From NCBI GenBank assembly GCA_021847945.1, contig JAJZNG010000107.1, positions 1 to 42,441 of the forward strand: 42,441 nucleotides of DNA, given 5' to 3'. Shown here piece after piece: positions 4,477 through 41,546 of the stretch. This stretch comes from Actinomycetes bacterium. GTDB lineage: Bacteria; Actinomycetota; Acidimicrobiia; Acidimicrobiales; Palsa-688. The translations under genes and the position numbers were made by a program. The notes beneath the pieces were generated by a model. That model had not been told where the DNA came from. It searched no databases and worked only from the letters and a program-made list of their open reading frames with translations. Positions within the stretch are counted from its first letter, which is position 1; the number at the start of each line of letters is the position of its first letter.

Positions 4477-4607
4477 GTTAGTTATTTTGTGACCTGCGGC
4501 CTTATAGGTCCGAAGGACGTCGTGGCAGGGGGTTGAGGGATATAGCGGAATCCAGGTTGTCGATAGTTGTCCCGTGTTAGTAAAGCAATTTTAAGAAAGG
4601 ACGAAAT

Positions 4608-6184: not shown

Positions 6185-6219
6185 CGGGCTACTTTGCTGG
6201 TCACGATCAGGGTAGCGTG

Positions 6220-11470: not shown

Positions 11471-11643
11471 ATCGCCTGTGAGGCCGACGGCGGATACCTG
11501 CGCTTCGCGCAGGATCGGTCTCCAAAGGGCAACCACCTGGTCCTATGCGATCCGAGCCGTGCGTATCACGCCCAGCGGTGCCGGACTCTCGGTCCGAGGC
11601 CAGCAGACCCGCAGGGGAAGGCACCGCGACCGGGGCAGCCGTC

Positions 11644-13683
11644 TCAGCGCAAGAACGCTGCTGCGACTCCGGCGTCGACGGGTATGTGAAGCCCGGTAGT
11701 GTGGGAGAGGTTTCCGCTCGCGAGGACGAACACGGCGTTGGCGACATGCTCGGGAAGGACCTCTTGTCCTAACAGGGTGCGTTTCGCATAAAAAGCTCCG
11801 AGCTGCTCCTCGGGGACTCCGTAGACGGCCGCTCTTTGAGCTCCCCATCCGCTAGCGAAGATCCCCGATCCCCGCACGACTCCGTCTGGATTGACCCCGT
11901 TGACTCGTATCCCCCGATCTCCGAGCTCGGCGGCCAGTAGGCGAACTTGGTGCGCCTGGTCCGCCTTGGTCGATCCGTAGGCAATGTTGTTCGGGCCGGC
12001 GAAGACTGAGTTCTTCGACACTATGTAGATGATGTCGCCGCCCATGCCCTGATCGAACATTACCCTGGCCGTCTCGCGCGATACCAGGAAAGAGCCTTTT
12101 GCCATCACGTCGTGCTGGCGGTCCCAGTCCTCGGATGTCGTTTCGAGGAGCCCTTTAGAGATCGAAAGCCCAGCGTTGTTGACGACCAGGTCGACGCCGC
12201 CAAAAGCTAGCACCGCTTCTTGAACGGCAGCCGCTACGGCGTCCTCGTCGGATACGTCGCCAGCGACGCCGACGGCCACGTCGGGCGAGCCGATACCTCT
12301 GGCGGCCCCACCAGCCGAATCGAGGTCAAGGTCGGCGAGGACGACGCACGCCCCCTCGGCTGCCAAGCGCTTTGCTGTGGCCAGCCCGATCCCCGATGCG
12401 GCCCCAGTGACGAAGGCGATCCGCGTCGCAAGAGGTTTCGGTTCGGGCATTCGACGGAGCTTGTCTTCCTCAAGCTGCCAGTATTCGATCCGGAACTTCT
12501 CCGACTCTGGGATCGGCGTGTAGGTCGACACCGATTCGGCCCCGCGCATCACGTTGATAGCGTTCACGTAGAACTCGCCAGCTACTCTGGCGGTCTGTTT
12601 GTTAGCCCCGAAGCTGAACATCCCGACCCCAGGTACAAGCACCACCGCCGGGTCGGCGCCGCGCATGGCAGGCGAATCGACCGTCGCGTAGCGCTCGTAG
12701 TACTCACGGTACTCGTCCCTGTACGCGGCGTGCAGCTCGGAGAGGCGTGCCTTCACGTCTTGTATGGGGGCTGTGGCCGGCAAATCGACGACCATGGGAC
12801 GAACTTTGGTGCGCAGGAAGTGGTCAGGACACGACGTACCCTTCGCTGCGAGCTCCGGCATGCGACCTCGCGACACGAAGTCGAGTACCACGTCGCTGTC
12901 GTTGTAGTGCCCGACCTGACGGCGGTCCGTGCTCGCCATGCCGCGAAGAAGCGGGAACAGTGCGGCCGCTCTTTGCTTTCGCTCGGCGTTCGGGAGTGGC
13001 TCCCATCCGTCGACCACGGCACCAAAAGGATCTGGGCGTCCGTGAGAGGCTAAGTATTCGGTAGCCTCGCGGATGATCCGAAGGGAGTTGGCTTCGCACT
13101 CTTCGGAGGTAGCGCCCCAAGCTGTTATCCCGTGCCCACCCAAAATAACGCCGATCGCCTCCGGATGATCACGCTGGATAGCAGCGATGTCCATACCGAG
13201 CTGGAAACCTGGACGGCGCCAAGGCACCCACACGACACGGTCGCCGAAGCAGTCTTTGGCGAGTCTCTCCCCGTCGGCAGCGGTCGCCAGGGCAATCCCC
13301 GCGTCGGGGTGAAGGTGGTCTACGTGATCGCAGGGGATCAGGCCGTGCATCGCAGTATCTATCGAAGGGGCTGCTCCGCCCTTGCCGTGTAAGCAGAAGT
13401 CGAACGCGCCTACCATCTCGTCTTCGCGCTCGACCCCAGGGTACACGTCCACGAGAGCCCGAAGCCGGTCCAGGCGTAGTACGCACAAGCCGCTAGGCGA
13501 CAGGGTTCCCAAGTCACCCCCGGAACCTTTCACCCACATCAGCTCTACGGGCTGACGGGTAACCGGATCCTCGTCGATCCCCTTAGCCGAGGCGTTGCCG
13601 CCGGCGTAGTTGGTGTTACGCGGGTCCGCACCGAGGCGATGGGATCGCTCGAGCAGTTGGTTGACGACAGAATCAGAAGCCAA
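11644..13683 (-). CDS. rhaEW: Bifunctional rhamnulose-1-phosphate aldolase / L-lactaldehyde dehydrogenase
   Basis: Cleaves L-rhamnulose 1-phosphate to DHAP and L-lactaldehyde and oxidises the latter to L-lactate. The class II aldolase domain covers residues 1 to about 400 (NTNYAGGNASAKG, WVKGSGGDLG, DTAMHGLIPCDHVDHLHPDA with metal-binding histidines, ILGGHGITAWG). A short-chain dehydrogenase follows from about 418 (FVTGAASGIGLATAKRLA, VVNNAGLS, catalytic YGSTK). The length of 679 residues suits known RhaEW proteins (about 690). The frame is open upstream to 13887, but the TTG at 13683 is preferred. It has GAGG five bases before it, and the extension would run through the promoter and operator at 13770-13812. 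L-lactate would then be used by the Lut genes in this window. Confidence 0.94.
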   Translation of the reverse strand: MASDSVVNQLLERSHRLGADPRNTNYAGGNASAKGIDEDPVTRQPVELMWVKGSGGDLGTLSPSGLCVLRLDRLRALVDVYPGVEREDEMVGAFDFCLHGKGGAAPSIDTAMHGLIPCDHVDHLHPDAGIALATAADGERLAKDCFGDRVVWVPWRRPGFQLGMDIAAIQRDHPEAIGVILGGHGITAWGATSEECEANSLRIIREATEYLASHGRPDPFGAVVDGWEPLPNAERKQRAAALFPLLRGMASTDRRQVGHYNDSDVVLDFVSRGRMPELAAKGTSCPDHFLRTKVRPMVVDLPATAPIQDVKARLSELHAAYRDEYREYYERYATVDSPAMRGADPAVVLVPGVGMFSFGANKQTARVAGEFYVNAINVMRGAESVSTYTPIPESEKFRIEYWQLEEDKLRRMPEPKPLATRIAFVTGAASGIGLATAKRLAAEGACVVLADLDLDSAGGAARGIGSPDVAVGVAGDVSDEDAVAAAVQEAVLAFGGVDLVVNNAGLSISKGLLETTSEDWDRQHDVMAKGSFLVSRETARVMFDQGMGGDIIYIVSKNSVFAGPNNIAYGSTKADQAHQVRLLAAELGDRGIRVNGVNPDGVVRGSGIFASGWGAQRAAVYGVPEEQLGAFYAKRTLLGQEVLPEHVANAVFVLASGNLSHTTGLHIPVDAGVAAAFLR

Positions 13684-13769
13684 GGTAACCTCGCACGCAG
13701 ACGCTAACGAACCGCCGGGTAAGTCAGGCAGACGTCGGGAACCCGACCAAACCTTCGTATCGGACGGAC

Positions 13770-13812
13770 TTGAATCGTTTAAAGTATATGCCTCGGAGGC
13801 ACGGTGATGCAA
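13770..13812 (-). promoter_or_regulatory. rhaEW promoter and LacI-type operator in the rhaEW-rhaM divergent region
   Basis: Read on the minus strand: -35 TTGCAT (13807-13812), 18-base spacer, -10 TATACT (13783-13788), then the operator TTGAATCGTTTAAA as seen on the plus strand (13770-13783), 12 of 14 matches to the consensus. It lies between the rhaEW TTG start and the rhaM GTG start, so one operator could control both directions. Confidence 0.68.
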
Positions 13813-13867
13813 GCGGTTAGGGTCGTGCAGACATCTCACGAGACGGTCGAAAATGGGAGGATTGCCA

Positions 13868-14185
13868 GTGTCGAGGATATGTTTCACGCTCCGGATTCGA
13901 CCGGAGAAGGTAGACGAGTACCGCCGGCGCCACGCCGAAGTATGGCCGGAAATGCGTGAGGCTCTGCGCTCGGCCGGGTGGCGGAATTACTCCCTCTTTC
14001 TTGCCGGCCCGGGCACGGTCATAGGCTACGTCGAGTGCGACGACTTCCAAGAAGCCCTCGCCGCCATGGCCGCCACAGAGGTAAATGCCCGGTGGCAGAA
14101 CGAGATGGCCCCACTGTTCGACCTTCAAGGCGGCCGCCCTGACGAAGCTATGGTTCCACTTGAGGAGCTATTTCACTTGGACTGA
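13868..14185 (+). CDS. rhaM: L-rhamnose mutarotase
   Basis: Small cytoplasmic enzyme that interconverts the alpha and beta anomers of L-rhamnose, speeding supply to the isomerase. The sequence RICFTLRIRPEKVDEYRRRH, then HAEVWPEM, GWRNYSLFL and IGYVECDDF is the full RhaM signature. The in-frame ATG at 13853 is not preferred, because GTG at 13868 has GGGAGG seven bases upstream and gives 105 residues, matching the family's usual 104. The isomerase gene follows after 125 bases with its own promoter. Confidence 0.93.
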   Translation: MSRICFTLRIRPEKVDEYRRRHAEVWPEMREALRSAGWRNYSLFLAGPGTVIGYVECDDFQEALAAMAATEVNARWQNEMAPLFDLQGGRPDEAMVPLEELFHLD

Positions 14186-14310: not shown

Positions 14311-15495
14311 ATGAAGGAGACTGCCGCAGCGTCCGGTGTTCTACGCGCCAAGGAGGTACTTCGTCGCCAGTCGATCGAGACCCCGTCGTGGGCGTACGGG
14401 AATTCGGGGACGCGGTTCAAGGTGTTCGCCCAGGACGGAGTCCCCCGCGACGCCTTCGAGAAGCTCGACGACGCATCCCAAGTCCACCGCCTGACCGGGG
14501 TCGCGCCGTCGGTTGCGTTGCACATTCCCTGGGATCGAGTAGACGATTACTCGAAGCTGGCGAAGCACGCGGCTGACGTGGGGGTGAGGATTGGCACTAT
14601 CAACGCGAACCTGTTCCAGGATCCCGACTACAAGCTCGGTAGTCTCACCCATCCGGACCGCAGAGTCAGAGCTAAGGCGCTCGACCACCTTTTCGAGTGC
14701 GTGGAGATCATGGGCTTGACAGGGTCGAAGGACCTGAAGCTGTGGTTCGCGGACGGCACCAACTATCCCGGTCAGGACAGCTTCCGGGCCCGTCAGGACC
14801 GTCTAGGGGAAGGGTTGGCCCAAGTGTATGAGCGTTTGGCCGACGACCAGCGGATGCTGCTCGAGTACAAGCTGTTCGAACCGGCGTTCTATCACACCGA
14901 TGTCCCTGACTGGGGCACGGCCCTGCTGCACTGCATGGCCGTAGGGGAGCGGGCCATGGTGGTGGTGGACACCGGCCACCACGCGCCGGGGACCAACATC
15001 GAGTTTCTAGTGGCCGGGTTGTTGAGAGCGGGACGGCTCGGCGCCTTCGACTTCAACAGCCGTTTCTACGCTGACGACGACCTGATGGTTGGCGCGGCTG
15101 ACCCGTTCCAGCTGTTCAGGATCATGACCGAGGTGGTCGCGGCGGGGGGTTTGGACGAGTCCTCACCTGTGGTGTTCATGCTAGATCAGTGCCACAACAT
15201 CGAGCCGAAGATCCCCGCCGAGATCCGCTCCGTGATGAACGTCCAAGAGGCCACAGCGAAAGCGTTGCTGGTCGACCAGGCGGCTCTGAGCGCAGCCCAG
15301 CTGAGCGGAGACGTTCTAGGCGCTCACGCAGTCGTTATGGACGCCTTCAACACCGACGTGAGACCAATGTTGGCCGACTTGCGTGTCGAAATGGGCCTAG
15401 ACCCGGACCCGATGTCCGCCTATGCCCGGTCAGGCTGGGCCGAGCAGATCGTTGTTCAGCGGGCCGGGGGACAACAAGCCGGTTGGGGAGCCTAG
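14311..15495 (+). CDS. rhaI: L-rhamnose isomerase, RhaI type
   Basis: TIM-barrel isomerase converting L-rhamnose to L-rhamnulose, 394 residues. It belongs to the RhaI (Pseudomonas stutzeri-like, actinobacterial) type rather than E. coli RhaA. Conserved blocks: VALHIPWDRVDDY, FQDPDYKLGSLTHPD, LWFADGTNYPGQDSF, LLEYKLFEPAFYHTDVPDWG, VVDTGHHAPGTNIEFLV, FDFNSRFYADDDL and DQCHNIEPKIP, which carry the metal-binding Glu, Asp and His residues. The ATG at 14311 has GGGGAAGG just upstream. The stop is 12 bases before a GH43 xylosidase gene, so the two probably form an operon under the strongest operator of the locus. Confidence 0.94.
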   Translation: MKETAAASGVLRAKEVLRRQSIETPSWAYGNSGTRFKVFAQDGVPRDAFEKLDDASQVHRLTGVAPSVALHIPWDRVDDYSKLAKHAADVGVRIGTINANLFQDPDYKLGSLTHPDRRVRAKALDHLFECVEIMGLTGSKDLKLWFADGTNYPGQDSFRARQDRLGEGLAQVYERLADDQRMLLEYKLFEPAFYHTDVPDWGTALLHCMAVGERAMVVVDTGHHAPGTNIEFLVAGLLRAGRLGAFDFNSRFYADDDLMVGAADPFQLFRIMTEVVAAGGLDESSPVVFMLDQCHNIEPKIPAEIRSVMNVQEATAKALLVDQAALSAAQLSGDVLGAHAVVMDAFNTDVRPMLADLRVEMGLDPDPMSAYARSGWAEQIVVQRAGGQQAGWGA

Positions 15496-15507: not shown

Positions 15508-17163
15508 GTGGGCTACCGAAATCCGGTGCTGCGCGGGGTCAACGCCGACCCGAGCGTATGCAGGCGAGCCGGAGACTACTACCTCGCCACCAGCTCGATG
15601 GACCTCGAACCCGGACTTCCGGTCTACCAAAGTCGTGACCTGGTGAACTGGCGGCTCGTCGGGCACGCCCTGGCGGGTGAACCGGGCTGTCTGCAACGTC
15701 CTCGCATGATCTTCGCGCCGACGATACGCCACCACGGTGGCCACTTCTACCTTGTCAGCACTGATGTGGCTGGGGGGGGAAACTTCCTTCTTCGTGCTGG
15801 CGAGCCCGAAGGGCCGTGGGAGGGTCCGTTCCCGATCGACGCCGACTCGTTCGACCCGAGCATCTGCTTCACCTCCGACGGACGCTGCTTTTACACGCGG
15901 CGCGGACGGATCGCCGACAAGGACATCGTCCAAGCCGAGATCGACCCTTCCAACGGTCGGCTCGTCACGCCGCTGAGGTCGATTGCAACAGGTTTCGTCT
16001 CCGACGACGCAGAAGGCCCGCACCTCTACGAGATCGGAGGCGTCTACTTCTTGGTGCTAGCCGAGGGTGGTTCGCGTGCCTTGCACATGGTGACCGTCGG
16101 CCGCTCGGACAGCCCGTGGGGTCCTTTCGAGCCGTGCCCCTGGAACCCGATCGTCGCTCAGCACCACGCGTGGTGGGACGAGCTGCTCGGCGCCGGTCAC
16201 GGCGAGTTGGTCGAAGCTCACGACGGGTCGTGGTGGATCACCTTCCTAGCGACGCGTCATCCCAGCTACGAGGCCCTCTCCCACCTCGGCCGGGAGACCT
16301 TTCTCGCGCCGGTCTCCTGGAGAGACGGATGGCCGTGGGTGGATCCCGAAGCGACCCGCAGACTGGATGTGCGCACGGCGACGTTACCCCTGGTTCCCCA
16401 GCCGCCGGTTGACCGTCGCGACGACTTCGACGCAGCGACTCTGAAAGGGTGCTGGGTTACCGTCGCGTCCCATGCGACGCCGCTGGAAAGTGAGGCGGAC
16501 ACCTCGCAGACACGGCAGCGCCCAGGAGGGGCGGCTGGCGTTGACGCAGGGAAGTGGTGGAGCCTCCAAGAGCGTCGCGGTCATCTCCGCCTACTGCCCG
16601 GGTCCGCCCCACGCGATCCCTTCCCGGCGGTGGCGGCTGAGCTGGAGATCGAGCCGTCTTCCGCTGGGCGACCGAGCGCTGACCGGCGTCAGGCCTTGCT
16701 GGTGCGCCGCCAGGAGGACCTTACTTGCGCGGCCGTAGCAGCGCTCGACGCGGACCCAGCGGACGGTGAGGAGGCCGGTCTGTGCGTCTTCCAGACGGCC
16801 AGCTATCGCTACGACATCGTGGTCGCCCGTCGCTTAGGGAGGCGTGTCGCATTCCTGCGCCGTAGAGTTTTGGACCTGCTAGCCGAGAACCGACCCGTAG
16901 ACCTGCCACCAGGGGTGGTGCGCCTACGCGTCGATGCCGACCCTGACCGTTACCGTTTTTCGGTCACCGACGACAGCGGAGCCAGCCACCTCCTCGGGTC
17001 TGGAGCGACGCGACTCATCTCTTCCGAGCTGGCAGGAGCCTGGAGCGGAGCGCTGATCGGGGTGTGGGCAGCCGCGCCGGCGGGTTCGTCTATGGTGGCC
17101 GACGTCGACTGGTTCGACTACGAAGGGGAAGACGAGCCAAGCTGTGTCGACGGTAAAGTTTGA
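15508..17163 (+). CDS. GH43 beta-xylosidase-like enzyme with C-terminal beta-sandwich
   Basis: Glycosidase of 551 residues, probably removing xylose from the non-reducing end of imported oligosaccharides. The start GYRNPVLRGVNADPSV is that of GH43 xylosidases (base D14). YQSRDLVNWRLVGHAL, SFDPSICF (D116) and DDAEGPHLYEIGGVYFLV (probable acid E169) complete the catalytic set. After residue 300 a second domain resembles the C-terminal beta-sandwich common in beta-xylosidases of this family. No signal peptide is present. The GTG start is 12 bases after the rhaI stop. Its stop abuts the xylB stop on the other strand with no spacer (TGATCA). Confidence 0.88.
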   Translation: MGYRNPVLRGVNADPSVCRRAGDYYLATSSMDLEPGLPVYQSRDLVNWRLVGHALAGEPGCLQRPRMIFAPTIRHHGGHFYLVSTDVAGGGNFLLRAGEPEGPWEGPFPIDADSFDPSICFTSDGRCFYTRRGRIADKDIVQAEIDPSNGRLVTPLRSIATGFVSDDAEGPHLYEIGGVYFLVLAEGGSRALHMVTVGRSDSPWGPFEPCPWNPIVAQHHAWWDELLGAGHGELVEAHDGSWWITFLATRHPSYEALSHLGRETFLAPVSWRDGWPWVDPEATRRLDVRTATLPLVPQPPVDRRDDFDAATLKGCWVTVASHATPLESEADTSQTRQRPGGAAGVDAGKWWSLQERRGHLRLLPGSAPRDPFPAVAAELEIEPSSAGRPSADRRQALLVRRQEDLTCAAVAALDADPADGEEAGLCVFQTASYRYDIVVARRLGRRVAFLRRRVLDLLAENRPVDLPPGVVRLRVDADPDRYRFSVTDDSGASHLLGSGATRLISSELAGAWSGALIGVWAAAPAGSSMVADVDWFDYEGEDEPSCVDGKV

Positions 17164-18579
17164 TCAGCGACTCGCCACCATGTCTCGGACCGCAGCGTAA
17201 CGCCGGCGAACGCCTGCCTGGTTAATGGCGCTGTAAGCCTTCCCAGGCGGCTCTGGCCATGCCGGGGGCGCTTTTTCGCCTGAGAGAACCCAGGACGCCT
17301 GGCGGGCAGCCCCGTCAGCTACGTACTCGCCGGGTTCGGGCACGACGACCGGCAGACCGAATACGCTAGGCGCGATCCGCCTCAGGGCCTCGGAGTTGGC
17401 CCCGCCGCCCACGAGAAGAACCCTTCGAGGCTTCACGCCATGCAGACAGAGCTGGTCAACGCCGTCGGCCAGACCGCACAGCAGGCCCTCAAACGCCGCT
17501 CGGGCCAGGTTGGCCTGGGTCGAATTGGAACCGTCGAGGCCGTGTACGGCAGCAGTGGCGTTCGGACGGTTCGGTGTCCGCTCGCCCTCGAAATACGGTA
17601 CGACGACCACCCCACCCGCTCCCGGCTCGGCTTGGAGGGCGAGGGGGGAGAGGTCCGCCGGCGTGACACCAACCAACCGGGCCGTAGCCTCCAGCACCCC
17701 GACACCGTTGAGGGTGCAGCACAGGGGCAGGAAACCGCCGGTCGCGTCGGCAAAGCCGGCCACCGCGCCGCTCGGGTCGGCTGTCGGCGTCGGACTGTAG
17801 GAGCTGACCACCCCGGACGTGCCTACCGAGACGACAACGTCACCGGGTTTCGCGTCGACCCCTAGGGCGGCGGCAGCGTTGTCTCCCGCCCCAGGGCCGA
17901 CCAGCACCCCGGCGGGTGTCACACCAGCCGCCTCGTGAGGGCCGACTATCTCGGGAAGGCGAACCCGCCGTCCGAAAGCCAGCTCTACCAGGTCGTGTCT
18001 CCAAGTGCCGCTGCTCGGCGACCAGTAAGCTGTGCCGCTCGAGTCGCTTCGGTCGGTGACCAAGCGGTGCTCGCGTCCAAGGAGACGCCACGTGAGCCAG
18101 TCGTGGGGGAGACAGACGGTGTCGGTGCGTGCAGCGTTGCCGGGCTCGTTTGCTGCCATCCAGCGCAGCTTGGTCACGGTAAACGAGGCGACCGGCACCG
18201 ATCCGGTCGCCTCTGCCCAAGCAGTCGGACCGCCGGGGAGTTCGCTGAGCAGTTCCTCCGCAGCGCCGGCGGAACGGGTGTCGTTCCAAAGCAGGGCGTC
18301 TCGCAATACGTCCCCCTGCTCGTCGAGGCAGATCATGCCGTGCTGCTGGGCGGCTACCGATATCGCCGCCACGTCGTCGAGCCCGCCAGCGGCTCGGAGC
18401 GCCTCGCCGAGGGCCGTCCACCAGTGCTCTGGGTCAACACTGGTTCCCGGGGGGTGCGCTGCGCGACCTGACCGTACGAGGCGTCCGCTGCCAGCTTCGC
18501 GTATAACCACCTTGCAGGACCGCGTCGAAGAGTCGACGCCGGCAACGAGGGCTCGCTGCAGCCGGCGCCTCCCGGCCAC
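17164..18579 (-). CDS. xylB: Xylulokinase
   Basis: FGGY kinase phosphorylating D-xylulose to D-xylulose 5-phosphate, entry to the pentose phosphate pathway. Motifs: N-terminal [78 protein letters not shown] and the C-terminal [20 protein letters not shown]. The frame is open upstream into xylA, but the homology begins right after the GTG at 18579, which lies 13 bases past the xylA stop and gives 471 residues. The ribosome binding site is poor, so translation may depend on coupling to xylA. Confidence 0.92.
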
Positions 18580-18592
18580 GGAGCCAAATGTG

Positions 18593-19774
18593 TCAGCGGG
18601 CGCCGAGGAGATGCTCGACCGCCAGTTGGTGGAGCCTGACGAACCCGTAGCCGCGCCGCCCGGCCGTGTCAGGGTCGTAGTCCTCCCAGCTCTTGAGATC
18701 CCGGCGGAGATCAAACAGCGTCTCCCCGGGGTCCAGGGTGGGTTCGCTCAAGGCTGTGACCCCCGAGCAGGCGAGGGCCTCGGCTACTTGGGGATCGGCC
18801 CTGTAGGCCTCTGAGCGTTCACGCAGAAGCAGGTAAGTGCGCATATTTGCCGCGGCTGAATCCCACACCCCTTCGAAGTCTTCGGTGCGCGACGGCTTGT
18901 AATCGAAGTGCCGAGGTCCGCTGTAGGAGGGACCTCCCCCCGGGCCTCCGTGCTCGAGAAGGTCCACTAGGAAGAAAGCGTTCAGCAGGTCGCCGTGCCC
19001 GAACACCAAGTCCTGATCGAACTTGATGCTGCGCTGGCCGTTAAGGTCGAGATGGAAAAGCTTCCCGGTCCACAGCGCTTGTGCCACGCCGTGGACGTAG
19101 TTGAGCCCGGCCATCTGCTCGTGGCCGACCTCCGGGTTCACCCCCACCATGTCGGCATGGTCGAGAGTGGCGATGAAGGCCAAGGCGTGCCCGACGGTCG
19201 GCAGGAGGATGTCACCTCGGGGCTCGTTAGGCTTCGGCTCGATAGCAAAACGCAGCGAGTACCCGCTGGTGACCACGTAATCGGCGAGAGCGTCGATCGC
19301 TTCCCGGTAGCGGTCCAAGGCTGCGGCGATGTCCTTGGCACCCTCGTACTCCGAGCCCTCCCGGCCTCCCCAGAACACGTAGGTGGACGCCCCGAGCTCA
19401 GCGGCGAGGTCAAGGTTGCGCATCACCTTGCGCAGGGCGAAACGGCGCACGCCCCGGTCGTTGCTCGTGAAGCCTCCGTCCTTGAACACCGGATGGGTGA
19501 AAAGGTTGGTGGTCATCATGGGCACGACCATGCCGGTCGCCTCAAGCGCTTTACGGAAACGGCTGACCGCGAAATCGCGTTCGCCTGCTGAAGCCCGGAA
19601 GTCGACCAGGTCATCGTCGTGGAAGGTCACTCCCCACGCGCCGAGCTCTGACAGCTTCTCCACCGCCACGACCGGGTCGAGGGGAGGACGGGTCGGATCC
19701 CCGAAAGTGTCCCTCGCCTGCCAGCCGACCGTCCAGAGCCCGAAACTGAACCGATCTTCACGAGTGGGAGTCAT
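18593..19774 (-). CDS. xylA: Xylose isomerase (actinomycete type)
   Basis: Converts D-xylose to D-xylulose; a TIM-barrel metal enzyme of 393 residues, like Streptomyces XylA (about 388). Conserved blocks: [32 protein letters not shown] (catalytic His), [77 protein letters not shown] and [11 protein letters not shown]. The ATG at 19774 is preferred because the homology starts directly after it; an in-frame GTG at 19783 is possible. xylB follows on the same strand. An operator-like site lies at 19900-19913 upstream. Confidence 0.95.
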
Positions 19775-19899
19775 CTCCACCACCTGGCTTCCGTATCGTC
19801 GCGTCCCAAAACCGGGCCGCTCACCTACTGGTAGATACTAACGACATCTCAACAGGCGGGCAATACGAACCGTCCGGCGAGGGGTAACAAGACGACGCC

Positions 19900-20105: not shown

Positions 20106-21551
20106 GTGACCAAGAAGCCCAACCTGGTCTTCATCATGTCGGACCAGCAGTCTCACGACATGGTCGGGGCATACGGTCTCAGCTCGGTCAGGACCCCGAA
20201 CATTGACGCTCTGGCTAGAGACGGAATTCTTTTCAATCATGCCATCTCGAACGCGCCGGTGTGCACGCCGGCGCGCAGCATGCTCATCTCCGGCCAGCAC
20301 CCTTGGTGGAACAACTGCATCGACAACGACCGGCGTCTGCTCACCGACAACGGGCCGTCAATCGCTCAAGTGCTCGGTGCTGTCGGCTACCGCAACGCCT
20401 ACGTCGGGAAGTGGCACCTCTACGGCGGGGACAGAGACCGGCCGGTGCCCCCCGGGCCCGACCGGCACGGATTCGACGACCTGTTCCTGTCCAACAACTG
20501 TCACGTCAACTACGACCCTCAGAACTCCTACTTCTGGGATGGCGACCGCAAAGAGCTCTTCGGCAAGTGGGAGGCCGAAGGCCAGACCGATCAGGCTGTC
20601 GAGTACCTGCGAGGGGTTAACCCCGAAAACCCGTTCTCGCTGTTCGTCTCCTACCACCCTCCCCACAACCATTCGGGAGGCGACGCCGAGCGGTACTCTA
20701 CTTTCGACGCGCCCGAGGAGTTCAAAAGCCTCTACGACCCGTCCGAGATCGACTTGAGGCCGACGATCCCCGACAACGAGCGCAAACGCCTCATGGTCCA
20801 GGGCTATCTGGCGATGTGCAGCGAAGTCGACTACCACGTCGGGCGGATCGTCGCCGCGTTGCGGGAGAAGGGACTCTACGACGACACGCTGATCGTCTAT
20901 ACCAGCGACCACGGTGAAACGTTCGGTGCCCTAAGCAACCACTGGCACAAAAGCAGCCCCGAAGACATGTCGATTAGAATACCTTTGGTCGTCAAGCTGC
21001 CGAACAGTGTCAACGCAGGCACCCGCAGCGATCTTCTGGTCGGCTCCTTGGACATGATGCCGACCCTTCTCAGCCTTCTAGGCGCCACGCCCCCGAAGGA
21101 ATGCCACGGCATCGACCTCGCAGCCGCGGTGTTAGCCCGACGCGACGACGCCGTCGAGTCGGTTCCGCTTTTCTTCTACTCCATCCCGTGGAGGGGTGTC
21201 TACACCCGGGAGTGGACCTACTCGGTGGAGAACATCGACCGCCGGCCGGGCGTGCTGGGACACCCGGCCTCCGACGTCGGTCGGACAGTGCTGCTACGAC
21301 GGTTCGACACTCTCTACGACCACGAAGACGACCCCCACCAGTTGTTCAACCTTTACGGCTACAAGGGCCGCAAAGGAACGCTTCGCTACCAAGATGTGGG
21401 CGAGGAGATGCACCGGCTCACCGTGGGCTGGCTCGAAAAGTTCGATGACCCTTTCCCCGACCAGGTCGAAACCGCACGCGCCCTTGGAGCTCGCGAGGTG
21501 AGGCCGGTGGACGTGCTCAACCGCCGGCAGCGCCACGCTGAGGGACCCTGA
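20106..21551 (+). CDS. Sulfatase 1 (type I, Cys-type formylglycine motif)
   Basis: Alkaline-phosphatase-fold sulfatase of 481 residues hydrolysing sulfate esters, presumably on sugar residues. The N-terminal metal site reads NLVFIMSDQQSHD. The modification motif is C53-T-P-A-R, which must be oxidised to formylglycine by a maturase such as the anSME in this window. YVGKWHLYG and YTSDHGETFG supply further metal and sulfate ligands. The GTG start has GGAGG seven bases upstream. There is no signal peptide: the protein begins MTKKPNLVF, directly at the catalytic fold. Sulfatase 2 follows after 42 bases. The exact S1 subfamily and substrate position cannot be told by eye. Confidence 0.92.
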   Translation: MTKKPNLVFIMSDQQSHDMVGAYGLSSVRTPNIDALARDGILFNHAISNAPVCTPARSMLISGQHPWWNNCIDNDRRLLTDNGPSIAQVLGAVGYRNAYVGKWHLYGGDRDRPVPPGPDRHGFDDLFLSNNCHVNYDPQNSYFWDGDRKELFGKWEAEGQTDQAVEYLRGVNPENPFSLFVSYHPPHNHSGGDAERYSTFDAPEEFKSLYDPSEIDLRPTIPDNERKRLMVQGYLAMCSEVDYHVGRIVAALREKGLYDDTLIVYTSDHGETFGALSNHWHKSSPEDMSIRIPLVVKLPNSVNAGTRSDLLVGSLDMMPTLLSLLGATPPKECHGIDLAAAVLARRDDAVESVPLFFYSIPWRGVYTREWTYSVENIDRRPGVLGHPASDVGRTVLLRRFDTLYDHEDDPHQLFNLYGYKGRKGTLRYQDVGEEMHRLTVGWLEKFDDPFPDQVETARALGAREVRPVDVLNRRQRHAEGP

Positions 21552-21593
21552 GATGAAGTCGGCGGGATCAGTCCGAAAGCCGGGTGTGGGAAA

Positions 21594-23042
21594 GTGACGC
21601 CGAACGTGGTGTGGATCCAGTCGGACGAGCACCGACCTGACTCACTCGGCTGCTACGGGTCGAGCTGGGCGAAGACCCCGAATCTGGACGCTCTCGCGAA
21701 GCGAGGGACGCTGTTCACTACCGCCGTGTGCCAGTCGCCGGTTTGCGTGCCCAGCCGGGCGTCGCAGCTCACGGCACGCTACCCCCAGGAGATCAACACC
21801 CTCCACAACGACGTCTGCGAAGAGGCCATGAGGATCGCCGGCGACGTCGACTTTGACATCCTGCCGCCGGGGACGGTCACCTTCCCGGAGTGGCTGGCGT
21901 CGCGAGGAGGGTTCCAGACGGTGACGTTCGGCAAAAGTCACATACCTCCCTGGCGTCCCTGGCAGGCCGAGCGTCTCGTGGTCAACGACGAGCGTTACGC
22001 TGGCTACTACAGCCTCAACGAATCCTTCGACGAAGAAGAACACCATGTGGTCAAACGTCCAGGCGGTGCGTCGATCATCCTCGCAGGCACCTACCCGGGC
22101 GGATTGGACAACCCGAGTCGGGCTATAACCGACGAGGCCATCGACTGGCTCGCGCACGGACGCGACCGCCGCCGTCCGTTCCTGCTGCGGGTCAGTCACA
22201 ACTGGCCGCATACACCCGTTCTGCCACCTGCTCCGTTCGACCAGCTCTACGACCCAGCGGACCTCCCCGTGCGAACTTTCGACGAGCAGGCTTACAAGAC
22301 GAGGTCTTCGTGGGACCGCCACATGGCCGACGCGCACCGCGTCTGGGAGCTAGACGACCGTCAGCTACGCCAGGTGTGGAAGGACTACATGGGCCTGTGC
22401 GCGTACGTCGACGACGAGGTAGGACGGCTCCTAGCAGCGTTGGAGGATCAGCGCCTCGGCGACAGCACGGTCGTGTTGTTCTCCTCTGATCACGGCAAGT
22501 CACTGGGAGAGTGGGGCGCGACGGAAAAGGGATTCTTCGACTCCGAGGTCTGGCGGGTGCCGTTCATATGGTCCTGGCCAGGGGTTATCCCTCAAGGCGA
22601 GACGCGAAGCGAGCCTTGCGAGCTGATCGACACCGGCCGTACCCTGACGGGACTGCTCGGTTTGGATTCGCCGGCAAACTGGCGGGGCCGAGATCTTTTC
22701 GCGTCAGTCGATGATAGGGGAGAGGCCTTCGGGCAGATCGGGTGGCCGTCCGCCGACGTACCTCGCGGTCCCCGCCGACGCGACGATCACTGGAACTGTC
22801 TTCGCGTCGCAATTCGAACCGAGCGCTACCGGATGGACGAGACCTGGATGGCCGCAGGCAGGCGCGTTCCGTTCGAACTAGGCGACGGCAATCTATTTGA
22901 CCTCGTCGTGGATCCCCAGGAGAGGTGCAACTTGTGGGGCTCCCCTGACAAGGCGGCCGTGGTGGCTGAGCTCCGGGAGCGTATCGAGCGGTGGTGGTGC
23001 ACCCTCGACCGTCCCGCCCGGACCTTCGGCGCCCAAAGGTGA
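21594..23042 (+). CDS. Sulfatase 2 (type I, Cys-type)
   Basis: Sulfatase of 482 residues. Motifs: NVVWIQSDEHRPDSLGCYG (metal site), C51-V-P-S-R (site of formylglycine formation), TFGKSHIPPW and LFSSDHGKSLGEWG (metal ligands). It differs clearly from sulfatase 1 and so probably attacks a different sulfate position or residue. The GTG start follows sulfatase 1 by 42 bases, suggesting one transcript. No signal peptide is visible. It is followed by the GH78 operon with its own promoter. Confidence 0.92.
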   Translation: MTPNVVWIQSDEHRPDSLGCYGSSWAKTPNLDALAKRGTLFTTAVCQSPVCVPSRASQLTARYPQEINTLHNDVCEEAMRIAGDVDFDILPPGTVTFPEWLASRGGFQTVTFGKSHIPPWRPWQAERLVVNDERYAGYYSLNESFDEEEHHVVKRPGGASIILAGTYPGGLDNPSRAITDEAIDWLAHGRDRRRPFLLRVSHNWPHTPVLPPAPFDQLYDPADLPVRTFDEQAYKTRSSWDRHMADAHRVWELDDRQLRQVWKDYMGLCAYVDDEVGRLLAALEDQRLGDSTVVLFSSDHGKSLGEWGATEKGFFDSEVWRVPFIWSWPGVIPQGETRSEPCELIDTGRTLTGLLGLDSPANWRGRDLFASVDDRGEAFGQIGWPSADVPRGPRRRDDHWNCLRVAIRTERYRMDETWMAAGRRVPFELGDGNLFDLVVDPQERCNLWGSPDKAAVVAELRERIERWWCTLDRPARTFGAQR

Positions 23043-23095
23043 CTGCCGGGGCGAACCGAGGCTCTGAGTGCTAGTAGCCGGCACCGTTGGGCTGG

Positions 23096-23148
23096 TTGAC
23101 ACGCCCTGACCGTTCCCATATGCTGGAACGTGATTTAAAACGGTTCAG
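23096..23148 (+). promoter_or_regulatory. Promoter and LacI-type operator of the GH78-sulfatase operon
   Basis: A perfect -35 TTGACA (23096-23101), 17 bases, -10 TATGCT (23119-23124). Ten bases on lies TTAAAACGGTTCAG (23135-23148), 11 of 14 matches to the locus operator. Confidence 0.72.
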
Positions 23149-23278
23149 TTAGCTTTCCTGCTTCCTGAGCTTGGAGGACGTCTCCTACAGGGACCTCGCG
23201 TGGAGGTGGATGCAGGTGGCCGGGAGCGACCGCAGCGGGTCGGGCTTACCAATCGAGTTCGGGGAAAGAGAACGTGAC

Positions 23279-26200
23279 ATGACGACACCAGAGGAACAAG
23301 CCGAGGAGTTGGTGGCCCAAAAGCTCGAAGCCGACCGACAGGCCAACGCCTTGTCAGTGGAGCTGACCGGCCCGTCGTTCGGATGGCAGCCCCTGGGGCG
23401 AGGCCAGGACCACAACCAACAGTCCTACAGGATCGAGGTCATTTCAGCCTCAGGGGCGGCGAGCGGCCAGCTGGTCTGGGACAGCGGGTGGGTTGACGGA
23501 ACGGAATGTGCCGACCTTGCCTACGGCGGTCCGCTCCTCGAGGCCGGCTCTGCGTACACGTGGAGGGTCAGGCTCCGCAACGACCGCTTCGTGGAGGGCC
23601 CTTGGAGCAACTGGTCGACTTTCGAAACGGGTTTGGGAGACACAGCATCCTGGGAGGCGCAGTGGATCACCGCGAGCGACGAACCGGTAGGTGGCCGGCT
23701 TCCTGACCTAGACGTAGTCCGGCGCGACGTTGGCCCTGGGAGAGTCCCCAGCTGGATATGGGGTGAGGACCAAAGTGGCGGTGCGGCACTGCGAACGACC
23801 TTCTGGGTGCGGCCGGGAGCGCGTTCGAGTCGTGCAGAGCTCGTTTGCCTAAGCCGGCGGCCGCTCAAATGTTGGGTTAACGGTCACGAGTGCGATCCGG
23901 TCGGACCGGTCACGGCACCTTTGTTCCCCGGGTTCAACGTGCTTGCCATCGCCGCCGAACCTGGCCCTGAGCCCGCAGGGGTCCTGGCATCGTTGGAGGT
24001 GTCCGCGGATCTTCTCCCGGGCACCGGCACCTGCACGGACGGCTCGTGGAAGGTCATGCCGCCGCCAGGTGAAGCGTCCGGCGGTCCGAGCGTCGAACCT
24101 CACGAAGCCCCGCCTTGGTCCTGGTCCGGCTTCGACGACGCGGATTGGGCGCCGGCGACGGTGTTGGGTCTGCACGGAGACGCCCCGTGGGGGCGAGCAG
24201 AGTTGTCGTACCGGCCGGCCCTGGCCCTACGCCAGGCCTTCAAACTGGGGTTCAAGCCGGCCAGGGCACGACTCTACGCGGCGTCGCTAGGGGACCACCG
24301 CCTGTGGATCAACGGCCGCCCGGTCTCGGACAGAGTTATGGTTCCGGGCTGGCGCGATTTCCGCCACCACCTGCCCTACCAGGTCTACGACGTCACTGAA
24401 GCCGTCGAAGCCGGCGACAACGTGCTCGCAGGTGCGCTCGCCGACGGCTGGTGGGCGGGCACCATCGCATGGTTCGGCCGCAGCTTCTACGGGGCCGGGC
24501 GAGCTCTTCGCGCAACTTTGGTAGTCGAGGGAGCCGACGGGGAGACCTTGACAGTACACACAGACCCGTCCTGGCGGGCAGGCCGCTGCGGCATCCAGTA
24601 CGCCGACCCTATCCACGGGGAGTGCTTCGACGCTTCTTGTGAACCACAAGGCTGGAAGGTTGACGCCACAGCTCCTCCACGCTTCACCCCTGCTGCCGTG
24701 GTCGGATACCCCACGCCGCCGCTTGTAAGAGAGGTCGCTCCGCCGGTCGTACCGGGGCAGACCCTCAAAGCGGTGGCCGTGCGACGTTGCGGAACCGCCG
24801 CTTGGATAGCGGACTTCGGCCAGGTCGTCTCGGGGAAGGTGCGGATGAAAGTTCGCGCCAGGCCCGGTTCCCGGGTGGTTGTGACCCACGCAGAAGCTGT
24901 CAGCGCGGACGGGGCGCTTTGGAGGGACGGGCTTCGAACGGCACGGGCCACCGACGAGTACATCTGCGCTGGAGAAGGCCGTTGGGAGCACGTAGAGCCG
25001 ACGTTCAGCGTGCACGGGTTCCGGTACGCGCAGGTGAACCTGACCGACAGCGAAGGCGACCTCGACTCGGAGTCGCTCGAAGCCGTCGCGTACTGGGCTG
25101 ACATGGAGCAAACCGGCAGCTTCTCGTGCAGCGACGAGCGGCTGAACCGTCTTCAGTCCAACATCGTCTGGTCCCTTCGGGACAACTTCCTTGCGATACC
25201 CACCGACTGTCCTCAGCGCGACGAGCGGCTCGGCTGGACAGCGGACATCCAGGTCTTCGCGCCGACCGCTGCGTTCAACTACGACGTCAGGAACTTCCTC
25301 GAGAGCTGGCTTGAAGACCTGCGCCTCGGACAGACGGCCGACGGGGCGATACCCCACTTTGCTCCGGTGGTCACGGACCCGGCGCATCTCGTCGCTGGAC
25401 GCGACTCGTGGAAGCTGCGAGGGGAGGAACCGGGGGAGCGTTCCACAGACGAGGCCGGCGCCGCAGGGTGGGGCGACGCGATCGTCTTCGTGCCGCTCGC
25501 GTTGATCGAAGCTTACGGGGACCGCCGGGTCGGAGTTGAGTGCCTCGACGCTATCGACGCTTGGCTCGGGTATCTCGACACCGAACGAGGCGGGTGGAAA
25601 CCCAGGGGCGGTTTCGGCGACTGGCTTGCAGCCGAGCCGACTCCAACACCGCTCGTAGTCCACGCCTACTGGGCGATCGCTGCCACAGCGTCCGCTGCCC
25701 TCGCCGCCGAGCTGGGAGATCAACATCGAGCAGTCAAGTTCCAGGGGATGGCCGAACGGGCGAGGAGGGTGTTCCGGGAACGGTGGCTTGACGACGCCGG
25801 CAACTTGAACCCAGCAACCCAGACAGCGTGCGTTCTCGCGCTGCGCACCGGCGCGCTCGACGCGGCGGAAGAGGCCCGCGCTCGGGCCGCTTTGGTGTCA
25901 GACGTCAGGTCGAAAGGCCACCTGACGACGGGATTTCTCGGGACACCCTGGTTGCTCGAGGAGCTGGCCCGCTCTGGGGCTACGAAAGAAGCGATGGACC
26001 TACTGCTTCGGGAGGAGTGGCCGTCGTGGCTTTACCCTGTTGTCAGCGGTGACGCCACGACCATGTGGGAGCGTTGGGATTCCTGGCACCACGAGCGCGG
26101 CTTCGGCGACCCGGGGATGACATCGTTTAACCATTACGCCTACGGTGCTGTCGGCGCGTTCCTCTATCAACGGGTCCTCGGTATAGCCCCCTCCCGCGCT

Positions 26201-26482
26201 GGCTACAGCGAAGTGACAGTCCAGCCGGTGCCGGCTGCCACGCTGTCATGGGCCAAAGGAGAGGTCGTCACCCCCCGCGGCCCGGTGAAACTGTCCTGGT
26301 CGTTGGATGAAGCTCGGCGTAGCTTCGACGTGCTCCTCGAACTACCACCCACGTGCCGCGCGACGGTCGTTCTCCCCCGGTCAGGTAGCCTCACGCTCGA
26401 AGGGGAGGACGCCGGCAAGATAGGCGCTGGTGAAAGCCGCTCCGTCGGCTCCGGGCAACACCACATCGTGGTCGCCTGGTGA
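23279..26482 (+). CDS. GH78 alpha-L-rhamnosidase
   Basis: Large inverting rhamnosidase, 1067 residues from the ATG at 23279. A TTG at 23171 is in frame but adds 36 residues with no family resemblance. N-terminal beta-sandwich domains (from LTGPSFGWQPLG) include the rhamnosidase N-domain (RLYAASLGDHRLWINGRPVSD). The concanavalin-like and (alpha/alpha)6 catalytic region has HGFRYAQV, TDCPQRDERLGWTADIQVF with the expected general acid near E649, FGDWLA, TTMWERWDSW and SFNHYAYGAVGAFLY. There is no signal peptide, so it is expected to release L-rhamnose from desulfated oligosaccharides inside the cell. It heads an operon with two sulfatases and an aldolase. Confidence 0.94.
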   Translation: MTTPEEQAEELVAQKLEADRQANALSVELTGPSFGWQPLGRGQDHNQQSYRIEVISASGAASGQLVWDSGWVDGTECADLAYGGPLLEAGSAYTWRVRLRNDRFVEGPWSNWSTFETGLGDTASWEAQWITASDEPVGGRLPDLDVVRRDVGPGRVPSWIWGEDQSGGAALRTTFWVRPGARSSRAELVCLSRRPLKCWVNGHECDPVGPVTAPLFPGFNVLAIAAEPGPEPAGVLASLEVSADLLPGTGTCTDGSWKVMPPPGEASGGPSVEPHEAPPWSWSGFDDADWAPATVLGLHGDAPWGRAELSYRPALALRQAFKLGFKPARARLYAASLGDHRLWINGRPVSDRVMVPGWRDFRHHLPYQVYDVTEAVEAGDNVLAGALADGWWAGTIAWFGRSFYGAGRALRATLVVEGADGETLTVHTDPSWRAGRCGIQYADPIHGECFDASCEPQGWKVDATAPPRFTPAAVVGYPTPPLVREVAPPVVPGQTLKAVAVRRCGTAAWIADFGQVVSGKVRMKVRARPGSRVVVTHAEAVSADGALWRDGLRTARATDEYICAGEGRWEHVEPTFSVHGFRYAQVNLTDSEGDLDSESLEAVAYWADMEQTGSFSCSDERLNRLQSNIVWSLRDNFLAIPTDCPQRDERLGWTADIQVFAPTAAFNYDVRNFLESWLEDLRLGQTADGAIPHFAPVVTDPAHLVAGRDSWKLRGEEPGERSTDEAGAAGWGDAIVFVPLALIEAYGDRRVGVECLDAIDAWLGYLDTERGGWKPRGGFGDWLAAEPTPTPLVVHAYWAIAATASAALAAELGDQHRAVKFQGMAERARRVFRERWLDDAGNLNPATQTACVLALRTGALDAAEEARARAALVSDVRSKGHLTTGFLGTPWLLEELARSGATKEAMDLLLREEWPSWLYPVVSGDATTMWERWDSWHHERGFGDPGMTSFNHYAYGAVGAFLYQRVLGIAPSRAGYSEVTVQPVPAATLSWAKGEVVTPRGPVKLSWSLDEARRSFDVLLELPPTCRATVVLPRSGSLTLEGEDAGKIGAGESRSVGSGQHHIVVAW

Positions 26483-26540
26483 GCTGGTCAGGTGGCGACG
26501 AACCGACCCGGTGCCGGGCGCCATTGACAGGAGGACGCCG

Positions 26541-27959
26541 TTGACACCAGACGACGGGTCCCAACCGAACGTACTTCTCATCGTCGCGGACCAGCACCGC
26601 TACGATTGCGTCGGGGCCGCCGGCGGCTACCCCGTCCAGACCCCGAACCTGGACGCTCTGGCCTCTGCCGGCACCTTCTACACCTCGGCTTTCACCCCGA
26701 TCCCACTGTGCGTACCCGCCCGTCAAGCGCTTCTGACCGGAGCGCGCCCAGAGAGCTTCGGAGCGCTTTGGAACTACGACCTAGGCCCGCTCGTGACTGC
26801 GCTAGCTCCCGACGCTTACAGCTGGCCCCGCGAACTGCAGCGCAAAGGGTACCGCACCCACTACCTCGGAAAGTGGCATGTCAACCCCGACCACGGCCCG
26901 ACCGACTTTGGCTACGACAGCTACGTCAGCCTTCAAGACTACGAAGACTGGAGACGCGCTGAGTACCCAGCGGAGCGAGTGTCGGACGGCTGGTTCGGGG
27001 CGGTCGACCCCATTCCCGTCGAGGCCAGCCGCACGCACTGGTTCGCCCGGCAGGCGTCGAGCTTCTTGGAGGAAGCCGGGCGCACCGGTCGTCCGTGGCA
27101 TCTGCGAGTTGACTTCGTCGAACCTCATCTGCCGTGCACGCCTTGCGCCCAGTTCGCCGAGCGCTACCCACCGCAGCTGATACCACCATGGCCTTCAGTA
27201 GCCGACCCGCTCGCCGGGAAGCCGTACATCCAACGCCAGCAGCGGGTCACTTGGGGTGTCCAAGACTTCACGTGGCAAGACTGGGCCCCAGTCGTCGCCC
27301 GCTACTACGCAGTTATAAGCCAACTCGACGACGCCGTCGGGCGGATACTTGCGTCCCTAGCGAGCACCGGCCAGCAAGACAGGACTGTCGTCGTGTACAC
27401 CTCCGATCACGGCGACATGTGCGGCGCTCACGGCATGATCGACAAGCACTACGTGATGTACGACGACGTCGTGCGGGTCCCGCTGATCATCCGCTGGCCC
27501 GGCCGTTCCCCAGCCCCTGCGCGTACGGACGACTTCGTCGTGAACGCGCTGGACTTGCCGGCGACCATAGCGACCCTGGCAGGTGTGTCAACGCCACCGT
27601 CGGGCCATGGGAAGATCCTCGGCTTCGACTCCTCGGGCGCACTGCAAAGCCCCATCTCACCCCCCCGGAAGCACGTGGTGGCCACCTATAACGGCCAGCA
27701 GTTCGGCCTTTACAGCCAGCGGATGATCCGCACGCGCGACTGGAAGTACATTTGGAACGCCACCGACGTCGACGAGCTCTACGATCTGAGAAGCGATCCC
27801 GCAGAAATGGTCAACCTGATCGAGGATCCCTCCAAGAGGGAACTGCTCGGCGAGCTTCGCTCGGCGCTGCACGCCGAACTCGTCGAGCATGGTGACCGTC
27901 TAGTAGATAACGCCTGGCTTCGCCACCAGCTCCTCGCCGGGGCGAAACTAGACCGATAG
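26541..27959 (+). CDS. Sulfatase 3 (type I, Cys-type)
   Basis: Sulfatase of 472 residues. Start: TTG at 26541 with a perfect AGGAGG six bases upstream. The frame is open back to 26430 inside the GH78 gene, but nothing there is conserved. Motifs: NVLLIVADQHRYDCVG (metal site), C57-V-P-A-R (formylglycine site), YLGKWHVNPDHGP and VYTSDHGDMCGAHG. It lies 58 bases after the GH78 stop in the same operon. No signal peptide is visible, so it should act in the cytoplasm. Confidence 0.92.
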   Translation: MTPDDGSQPNVLLIVADQHRYDCVGAAGGYPVQTPNLDALASAGTFYTSAFTPIPLCVPARQALLTGARPESFGALWNYDLGPLVTALAPDAYSWPRELQRKGYRTHYLGKWHVNPDHGPTDFGYDSYVSLQDYEDWRRAEYPAERVSDGWFGAVDPIPVEASRTHWFARQASSFLEEAGRTGRPWHLRVDFVEPHLPCTPCAQFAERYPPQLIPPWPSVADPLAGKPYIQRQQRVTWGVQDFTWQDWAPVVARYYAVISQLDDAVGRILASLASTGQQDRTVVVYTSDHGDMCGAHGMIDKHYVMYDDVVRVPLIIRWPGRSPAPARTDDFVVNALDLPATIATLAGVSTPPSGHGKILGFDSSGALQSPISPPRKHVVATYNGQQFGLYSQRMIRTRDWKYIWNATDVDELYDLRSDPAEMVNLIEDPSKRELLGELRSALHAELVEHGDRLVDNAWLRHQLLAGAKLDR

Positions 27960-28053
27960 GGCCGGCTCGGTTGGATCCCAGGGTGCAAGCCGGCCAAAGC
28001 GGCGGCGTAGCGTAATGCAAGGCGGAAACCATGTCTTTTGAAAGGTGGACACG

Positions 28054-29598
28054 ATGACGTTTGATCGCAAGGAAACTCCGAACGTGTTGTTCATCATGAC
28101 CGACCAGCAACGCTTCGACGCGATCCACGCCTTGGGCAACCAGATCATCTCGACACCGAACATCGATCGCCTCGTAGCACGGGGAGTGGCGTTCACGAAC
28201 GCGTATTCGACGTGCCCCGTCTGCGTTCCGGCGCGCTACACGCTGCGAAGCGGGTGCGAACCCCACAGGACCGGCGTGTACTCCAACGAGTCCGGACCGC
28301 AGGTTCACGCATCGGTGAGAGACGCCTGCGGACCGTTCCTGGCGGAGGTAATGGCGCAAAGGGGTTACCGGACTTTCGGTGTCGGCAAGTTCCACACCAT
28401 ACCTTGGGACGCGAAAGTCGGCTACGAGATCGAGGAGCGCTCAGAGGAGCTGTATGACTCTCCCCGCCAGCGCGCCGAGGACAGCTACGCCGCGTTCATA
28501 GCCAGGGAGCATCCCGAGTACGCCTTCATCGAGAACCTGATGGGCGAGCGCACGGAGATGTACTACGTACCTCAGATGAGCCCGCTGCCCGCATCGCTCG
28601 GGGTGGAGGCATGGGCAGCGGACCGCACGTGCGCTCTTCTCGCAGATCCCGATCCAAGACCGTTCTTCGGTTTCGTGTCTTTTATCGGTCCGCACCCGCC
28701 GTTTGCGCCGCCGATCCCTTTCAACCGTTTATACGACCCCGATGACATGCCCCTGCCGGTGCTTGGCGACATTGACATCGACCACCAAGACGAGCAGATC
28801 CCTTGGATGAACTACGCGGTCTACGCGGAGGATGTCAGCCCTGCACTTGCGAGAGTTCTCAAGGCCCGTTACTACGGCGAGATAACCTACATCGACAGCT
28901 GCATCGGTCGGGTGCTGGACGCGCTCGACGAGAGGACGGACCGCGACGACACGGTAGTCTGCTTCTTCGCTGATCACGGAGATCACCTGGGCGACCACCA
29001 TGCGTGGCAGAAGGAGAGCTTCTTCGAAGCCTCGTGTCGAGTGCCGCTGATAGTGAGCTGGCCCGGACGGTTGCCCGGCGGGACTTACTCGGACCAACTG
29101 GCGTGCCTCACCGACCTTTTCGGCGTAGCGACAGCCGCATCAGGGACGGCGCTTTACCGCGACGGACACGACATACTGGGGGTGCTGGAGGGGGCCTGCG
29201 GGCAGCGCTCGACCCTGCAGGGCCTCTACGGCACGCCGGGGTCACCTCGCTTCAAGGTGATGCTGCGCTCCGAGAGATGGAAGTACGTCTACATCGCCAA
29301 CGGCGGCTACGAACAGGTTTTTGACCTTTCAACCGACCCGCACGAGCTGACCGAGCTGCACGAGGCCATGCCTGATGTCACGGCGCATCTTCGAGATCAG
29401 GCGGTCCGCTTCGTCGGAAGCGTCGGCCTGTCGGTGGCGCTCGGCGACGGCGGGTCAGCCCTGCGGGCGTATCCAGCGCAGCGCCGGCCTTTCCAACGAA
29501 TACACCAGTTCGACTCGTCCCGGGGCATCGAACGCTTCGGGGTTGGATCGCCGGCCGGCAGCGGCGGCGCACAGGAGAAGAAAGGCAAGCGCATATGA
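28054..29598 (+). CDS. Sulfatase 4 (type I, Cys-type)
   Basis: Sulfatase of 514 residues from the ATG at 28054, which has GAAAGG upstream (a GTG at 28045 is also in frame). Motifs: NVLFIMTDQQRFDAIHALG, C57-V-P-A-R (formylglycine site), TFGVGKFHTIPWD and CFFADHGDHLGDHHAWQKES. The C-terminus carries a basic, low-complexity tail (about 40 residues). The stop overlaps the start of the aldolase gene as ATGA. No signal peptide is visible. It is the fourth distinct sulfatase in the locus, consistent with a substrate sulfated at several positions. Confidence 0.92.
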   Translation: MTFDRKETPNVLFIMTDQQRFDAIHALGNQIISTPNIDRLVARGVAFTNAYSTCPVCVPARYTLRSGCEPHRTGVYSNESGPQVHASVRDACGPFLAEVMAQRGYRTFGVGKFHTIPWDAKVGYEIEERSEELYDSPRQRAEDSYAAFIAREHPEYAFIENLMGERTEMYYVPQMSPLPASLGVEAWAADRTCALLADPDPRPFFGFVSFIGPHPPFAPPIPFNRLYDPDDMPLPVLGDIDIDHQDEQIPWMNYAVYAEDVSPALARVLKARYYGEITYIDSCIGRVLDALDERTDRDDTVVCFFADHGDHLGDHHAWQKESFFEASCRVPLIVSWPGRLPGGTYSDQLACLTDLFGVATAASGTALYRDGHDILGVLEGACGQRSTLQGLYGTPGSPRFKVMLRSERWKYVYIANGGYEQVFDLSTDPHELTELHEAMPDVTAHLRDQAVRFVGSVGLSVALGDGGSALRAYPAQRRPFQRIHQFDSSRGIERFGVGSPAGSGGAQEKKGKRI

Positions 29599-41509: not shown

Positions 41510-41546
41510 GGGCGTTCCCGCCGGCCTGGGTTCAGCGGGAACGCCC
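41510..41546. terminator. Bidirectional hairpin terminator between sodN and anSME
   Basis: A perfect 12-base stem (41510-41521 with 41535-41546, GGGCGTTCCCGC and its complement) and a 13-base loop, starting 11 bases after the sodN stop. The stop codon of the anSME gene on the minus strand falls in the loop (41532-41534), so one arm is also coding. Confidence 0.75.

Follow-up and report, generated by a model that had tools for sequence, protein, structure and literature searches.

Organization of the sulfatase locus

The window, i.e. the whole stretch of DNA that was analysed (42,441 nucleotides), is a contig of an Actinomycetes bacterium, and all the ORFs of the first-pass annotation were confirmed at the positions given there. 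On its forward strand, it carries four sulfatase genes, S1 (20106–21551), S2 (21594–23042), S3 (26430–27959) and S4 (28045–29598), together with the gene of a GH78 alpha-L-rhamnosidase (23171–26482) and two GH43 genes (6217–7545 and 15508–17163, the latter encoding a GH43_C2 domain). The four sulfatases match PF00884 (E 4.9e-53 to 1.4e-42; 146–181 bits for a cut-off of 25) and all harbor, along with the metal-binding and catalytic motifs (D[QE], GK.H and DHG), the formylglycine motif C.P[SA]R, which reads CTPAR in S1, CVPSR in S2 and CVPAR in S3 and S4. Profile and motifs thus point to type I (formylglycine) sulfatases, whose activity is predicted. S3 resembles 6hr5, named as an alpha-L-rhamnosidase/sulfatase. 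The GH78 protein (1103 aa) includes five domains, and its true start may be an ATG located 35 codons downstream of the chosen one.

Upstream on the same strand, two permeases of an ABC sugar importer (2652–3638, PF00528; 3625–4476, assigned from sequence and position) precede a solute-binding lipoprotein (4608–6104; PF01547, lipobox TASAC) that shows weak similarity to UgpB. No importer-type ATPase was recognised within the window, which is why it is placed elsewhere in the model proposed below. Two sets of catabolic genes are found in the same region. The first one concerns L-rhamnose: a rhamnulokinase-like FGGY kinase (765–2258, forward; score under the family cut-off), a bifunctional rhamnulose-1-phosphate aldolase/dehydrogenase (11644–13887, reverse; over the cut-off of TIGR02632) and an L-rhamnose isomerase (14311–15495, forward; over the cut-off of TIGR02635). 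The second one, on the reverse strand, encodes a xylulokinase (17164–18714; just under the family cut-off) and a xylose isomerase (18593–19783; over the cut-off of TIGR02631). A limited search identified no depolymerase able to release an oligosaccharide. The window also encodes an ABC exporter pair (7566–11536) and, on the reverse strand, the two parts of an anaerobic sulfatase maturase (anSME): the N-terminal part (1–310) runs off the contig and the C-terminal part (41532–42440) enters from its other end.

Absence of leaders on the sulfatases and glycosidases

The first-pass annotation had proposed that the four sulfatases, the GH78 and the two GH43 enzymes all lack a signal peptide. To look for leaders, hydropathy was scanned in 11-residue segments from every candidate start, with positive controls, each frame being translated from the stop codon immediately upstream. 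The in-frame open stretches upstream of the chosen starts are only 9, 14, 2 and 1 aa long for the sulfatases, 6 aa for GH78, and 32 and 4 aa for the GH43 enzymes, and none of them contains a hydrophobic segment. Barring a sequencing frameshift, no choice of start would therefore add a Sec, Tat or lipoprotein leader to any of the seven enzymes. The best hydropathy ahead of the catalytic domain does not exceed -0.23 in the sulfatases and ranges from 0.23 to 0.61 over residues 1–45 of the GH78 and GH43 enzymes, versus 1.98 for the importer lipoprotein and 1.5–2.5 for other binding proteins. Nor does any of the seven enzymes show a Tat motif. The proposal stands, including for the upstream in-frame starts.

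The annotation had further stated that each enzyme begins within a few residues of its first conserved motif or domain. This holds for S1, S2 and S4 (2–11 residues before the first catalytic strand) and for the GH43 enzymes, but neither for S3, which has a hydrophilic N-terminal extension of 44 residues, nor for GH78, in which about 50 residues precede the first domain. A tblastn match had suggested that the S3 extension is conserved in Paenibacillus; in Paenibacillus, though, the frame ahead of the annotated start bears no convincing resemblance to it and is soon closed by a stop. Likewise, the lipoprotein had been described as the only exported component. It does carry the sole classical leader among the soluble proteins, but the N-terminus of a Ni-superoxide dismutase is also leader-like (hydropathy 2.24). 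This protein (41082–41498), whose gene adjoins that of anSME, has a hydrophobic N-terminal stretch ahead of its HCDLPCG metal hook, which we take to be a processed propeptide.

In a set of 73 distinct N-termini of sulfatases, drawn from this genome and related ones, 10 carry obvious leaders (scores 2.8–3.25), with basic residues ahead of the hydrophobic stretch; one scores 1.61 and is not leader-like, and 62 are below 1.5. All 10 sulfatases of this genome are leaderless, and seven of its sugar-binding proteins have clear lipoprotein leaders. As the scan does pick up leaders, in clade sulfatases as well as in this genome's binding proteins, their absence in the window is real and genome-wide. 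With these same-genome and clade controls, the sequences strongly support the cytoplasmic location predicted for the sulfatases, GH78 and GH43 enzymes and, with it, the cytoplasmic desulfation and rhamnosidase steps that had been put forward.

The genes begin with GTG or TTG and come from a draft MAG, so that leaders might have been lost through wrong starts or assembly frameshifts. This is extremely improbable: the upstream frames close within 1–32 codons in all seven enzymes, an identical error would be needed in ten sulfatases, and the region 20437–27220 is found at 99.2% identity in a second MAG, where the N-termini of S2 and S3 are equally leaderless. The sulfatases could also be exported without a recognisable leader, for instance by a non-classical route, via the ABC exporter pair of the window or by hitchhiking with a Tat partner, given that hydropathy scans are blind to non-classical export. 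It is very unlikely, since the exporter pair matches general lipid, drug and peptide exporters, the ordinary leaders found on 10 of the 73 sulfatases indicate that the standard route is available to the clade, and importer-linked leaderless sulfatases occur in unrelated phyla (see below).

Association of leaderless sulfatases with inner-membrane importers

In this genome, sulfatase genes are linked to importer genes on three contigs, C235, C200 and C38. The first one encodes consecutively a binding protein, two permeases (assigned by sequence and position only) and a sulfatase, and the second one a binding protein and a sulfatase. Sugar-binding proteins are found on 3 of the 6 sulfatase contigs, although only 8 of the 243 contigs encode one; the hypergeometric probability of this overlap is 4.5e-4 when contig size is not weighted, and about 0.002–0.016 if the binding-protein contigs make up 5–10% of the sequence. 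Another contig carries a uronide cluster that includes GH88/105-type and KduI genes and has its own importer; its GH88/105-type enzyme is leaderless. In this cluster, a 960-aa ORF without any Pfam match (L129 (G000:C4), 3190–6072) lies between the KduI and GH88/105-type genes, near the importer, and possibly encodes an undescribed uronide-acting enzyme.

The N-termini of sulfatases from named plasmid records were also compared. All 11 sulfatases encoded beside ABC, TTT or PTS importers are leaderless: eight beside binding-protein ABC importers (Deinococcus, 1; Paenibacillus, 3; Shinella, 3; Microvirga, 1), two beside a tripartite tricarboxylate transporter (Alisedimentitalea) and one beside a PTS (Enterococcus). 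By contrast, all five from outer-membrane-uptake bacteria bear a leader: two from Pseudoalteromonas and one each from Vibrio, Flammeovirga and Bacteroides, the leader of the last one being visible only upstream of the annotated start. For Flammeovirga, the stretch read showed no TonB or SusCD gene, and in Vibrio a porin and a PTS lie near the sulfatase locus; these two were therefore assigned according to their host type and not to an adjacent receptor. The 11:0 versus 0:5 split (Fisher 2.3e-4) comes from a small, hand-picked and phylogenetically non-independent panel that was classed after the fact. Shinella, Microvirga and Alisedimentitalea are Gram-negative and yet their sulfatases are leaderless, which argues for an effect of the uptake route and not of the envelope type. 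The lack of leaders is thus genuine and would reflect the uptake route, not a wrong choice of start codons.

The first-pass annotation had suggested that this arrangement is unusual, by contrast with well-studied systems in which sulfatases are usually periplasmic or secreted. This view is not supported, as those are outer-membrane (SusCD/TonB) systems, whereas the importer-linked sulfatases of the panel are leaderless. Leaderless sulfatases would rather appear to be the usual arrangement beside an inner-membrane importer, the window being a further case of a known kind in which import comes first and desulfation is cytoplasmic. The suggestion that still-sulfated oligosaccharides have to be imported first gains support from the linkage on C235, C200 and C38, from that seen in Deinococcus, Paenibacillus, Shinella and Microvirga, and from experiments on Streptobacillus (PMC5430744).

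Alternatively, the importer might take only unsulfated rhamno- or xylo-oligosaccharides, and the cytoplasmic sulfatases might serve another purpose, such as the scavenging of sulfur from small sulfate esters or the turnover of internal sulfated metabolites. S1–S4 are distantly related to choline sulfatases, and choline-sulfatase-like enzymes are known in the cytoplasm. However, all four score far under the choline-sulfatase cut-off, they flank GH78 in one gene run beside the rhamnose and xylose catabolism genes, and the pairing of importer and sulfatase recurs in the genome and across phyla, so that import of unsulfated sugars only is rather unlikely. The presence of anSME does not discriminate between locations of the sulfatases, as this maturase also acts on exported ones.

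A model for the use of sulfated oligosaccharides

A pathway that starts with the import of a sulfated rhamnose/xylose oligosaccharide is thus probably encoded by the locus and can be viewed as follows. The lipoprotein 4608–6104 would capture the still-sulfated oligosaccharide outside the membrane, and the two permeases would import it, presumably powered by an ATPase encoded elsewhere. The anSME encoded by the same contig would mature the four Cys-type sulfatases to their formylglycine form. In the cytoplasm, these would remove the sulfate esters, and GH78 and the GH43 enzymes would release L-rhamnose and probably xylose. L-rhamnose would then enter metabolism via RhaA, RhaB and RhaD, and xylose via XylA and XylB. 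We infer here the enzyme activities, the order of the steps and the presence of sulfate on the molecule when it is imported; the genes, their motifs, the lack of leaders and the linkage to importers are observed.

These data suggest that sulfatase export tracks the type of sugar uptake system and not the family to which the enzyme belongs. In metagenomes, leaderless sulfatases could therefore serve as markers of sulfated-oligosaccharide import. These data also suggest that the lineage may scavenge oligosaccharides released by others instead of degrading polymers itself.

Contig structure and possible transfer

A single anSME gene is split over both contig ends (1–310 and 41532–42441), in the same orientation, which indicates that the contig probably is a circle or belongs to a tandem array. 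With 308.3 and 131.6 bits, neither part reaches the TIGR03942 cut-off of 349.45, the gene being cut by the contig ends, and four bases are missing at the join by comparison with the intact gene of another genome (G002, taken to be MAG FK5.bin99). No replication gene was recognised among the contig proteins examined. The match at 99.2% identity to window positions 20437–27220 is a 6784-base contig of MAG FK5.bin99 (Actinomycetes bacterium, JAJZAM010000124.1), which has 2x coverage according to its title. The anSME genes of this genome and of G002 share only 76–79% DNA identity, so that the near-identity of the sulfatase/GH78 region would result either from a recent transfer or from the misbinning of a low-coverage contig. 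A genuine circular and mobile catabolic element of 42 kb, transferring a complete pathway of import and desulfation along with its maturase between actinomycete species, is a doubtful reading of this contig.

The best match of S4 in the plasmid collection is found in Halocatena marina (L134, 20001–21476; 56% identity). Of the 296 genomes of the class, only its own one has a match to S4 at E 1e-60. Such a distribution makes a cross-domain transfer of S4 possible.

Comparison with known systems

Literature searches on cytoplasmic sulfatases yielded almost nothing on bacteria. Ulvan utilisation loci of marine Bacteroidota and gammaproteobacteria combine, like the window, sulfatases with rhamnosidase- and xylosidase-type enzymes. 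These loci are outer-membrane systems with exported sulfatases, leaders being seen in the Pseudoalteromonas sulfatases of the panel. The window does not combine exported sulfatases with outer-membrane uptake. Its assignment to this group was considered and not adopted; no ulvan lyase was recognised among the window proteins scanned.

The closest architecture found is an uncharacterised plasmid cluster of Microvirga ossetica (NZ_CP016620.1), where genes for an alpha-L-rhamnosidase, two permeases, a binding protein, a leaderless sulfatase and a LacI regulator adjoin; unlike the window, it encodes a single sulfatase and also galactosidases. The Halocatena marina plasmid that encodes the relative of S4 (itself leaderless) is an uncharacterised archaeal locus. 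For haloarchaeal GAG loci, import of sulfated chondroitin disaccharides followed by desulfation inside the cell was proposed (2026, PMC13260240), i.e. the same route as proposed for the window, but in archaea and for a glycosaminoglycan substrate.

The GAG cluster of Streptobacillus moniliformis (Smon0120–0127) resembles the window in having a binding-protein ABC importer, a predicted-cytoplasmic sulfatase and a glycosidase acting inside the cell. According to Oiki et al. (2017, PMC5430744), basic residues enable its binding protein to accept sulfated disaccharides, and sulfatase activity toward a sulfated chondroitin disaccharide was not detected outside the cells. Unlike the window, this cluster takes up glycosaminoglycan, encodes a GH88 instead of GH78 and GH43 enzymes, and has one sulfatase discussed versus four. 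A comparison of the 4608–6104 protein with the PDB, up to E 5, detected no sequence similarity to Smon0123, whose structure is solved. Within Actinomycetota, Bifidobacterium breve is described as possessing intracellular sulfatases and as feeding on sulfated sugars freed by others (PMC7326374), and its ats clusters group anSME, transporter and regulator genes (PMC9239261). The ats clusters of strain UCC2003 are like the window in encoding intracellular sulfatases with anSME and a transporter, but they are devoted to sulfated monosaccharides (GlcNAc-6-S) from mucin and not to rhamnose/xylose oligosaccharides. Import first, then cytoplasmic desulfation, is thus an already known strategy, for which Streptobacillus and B. 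breve provide the precedents.
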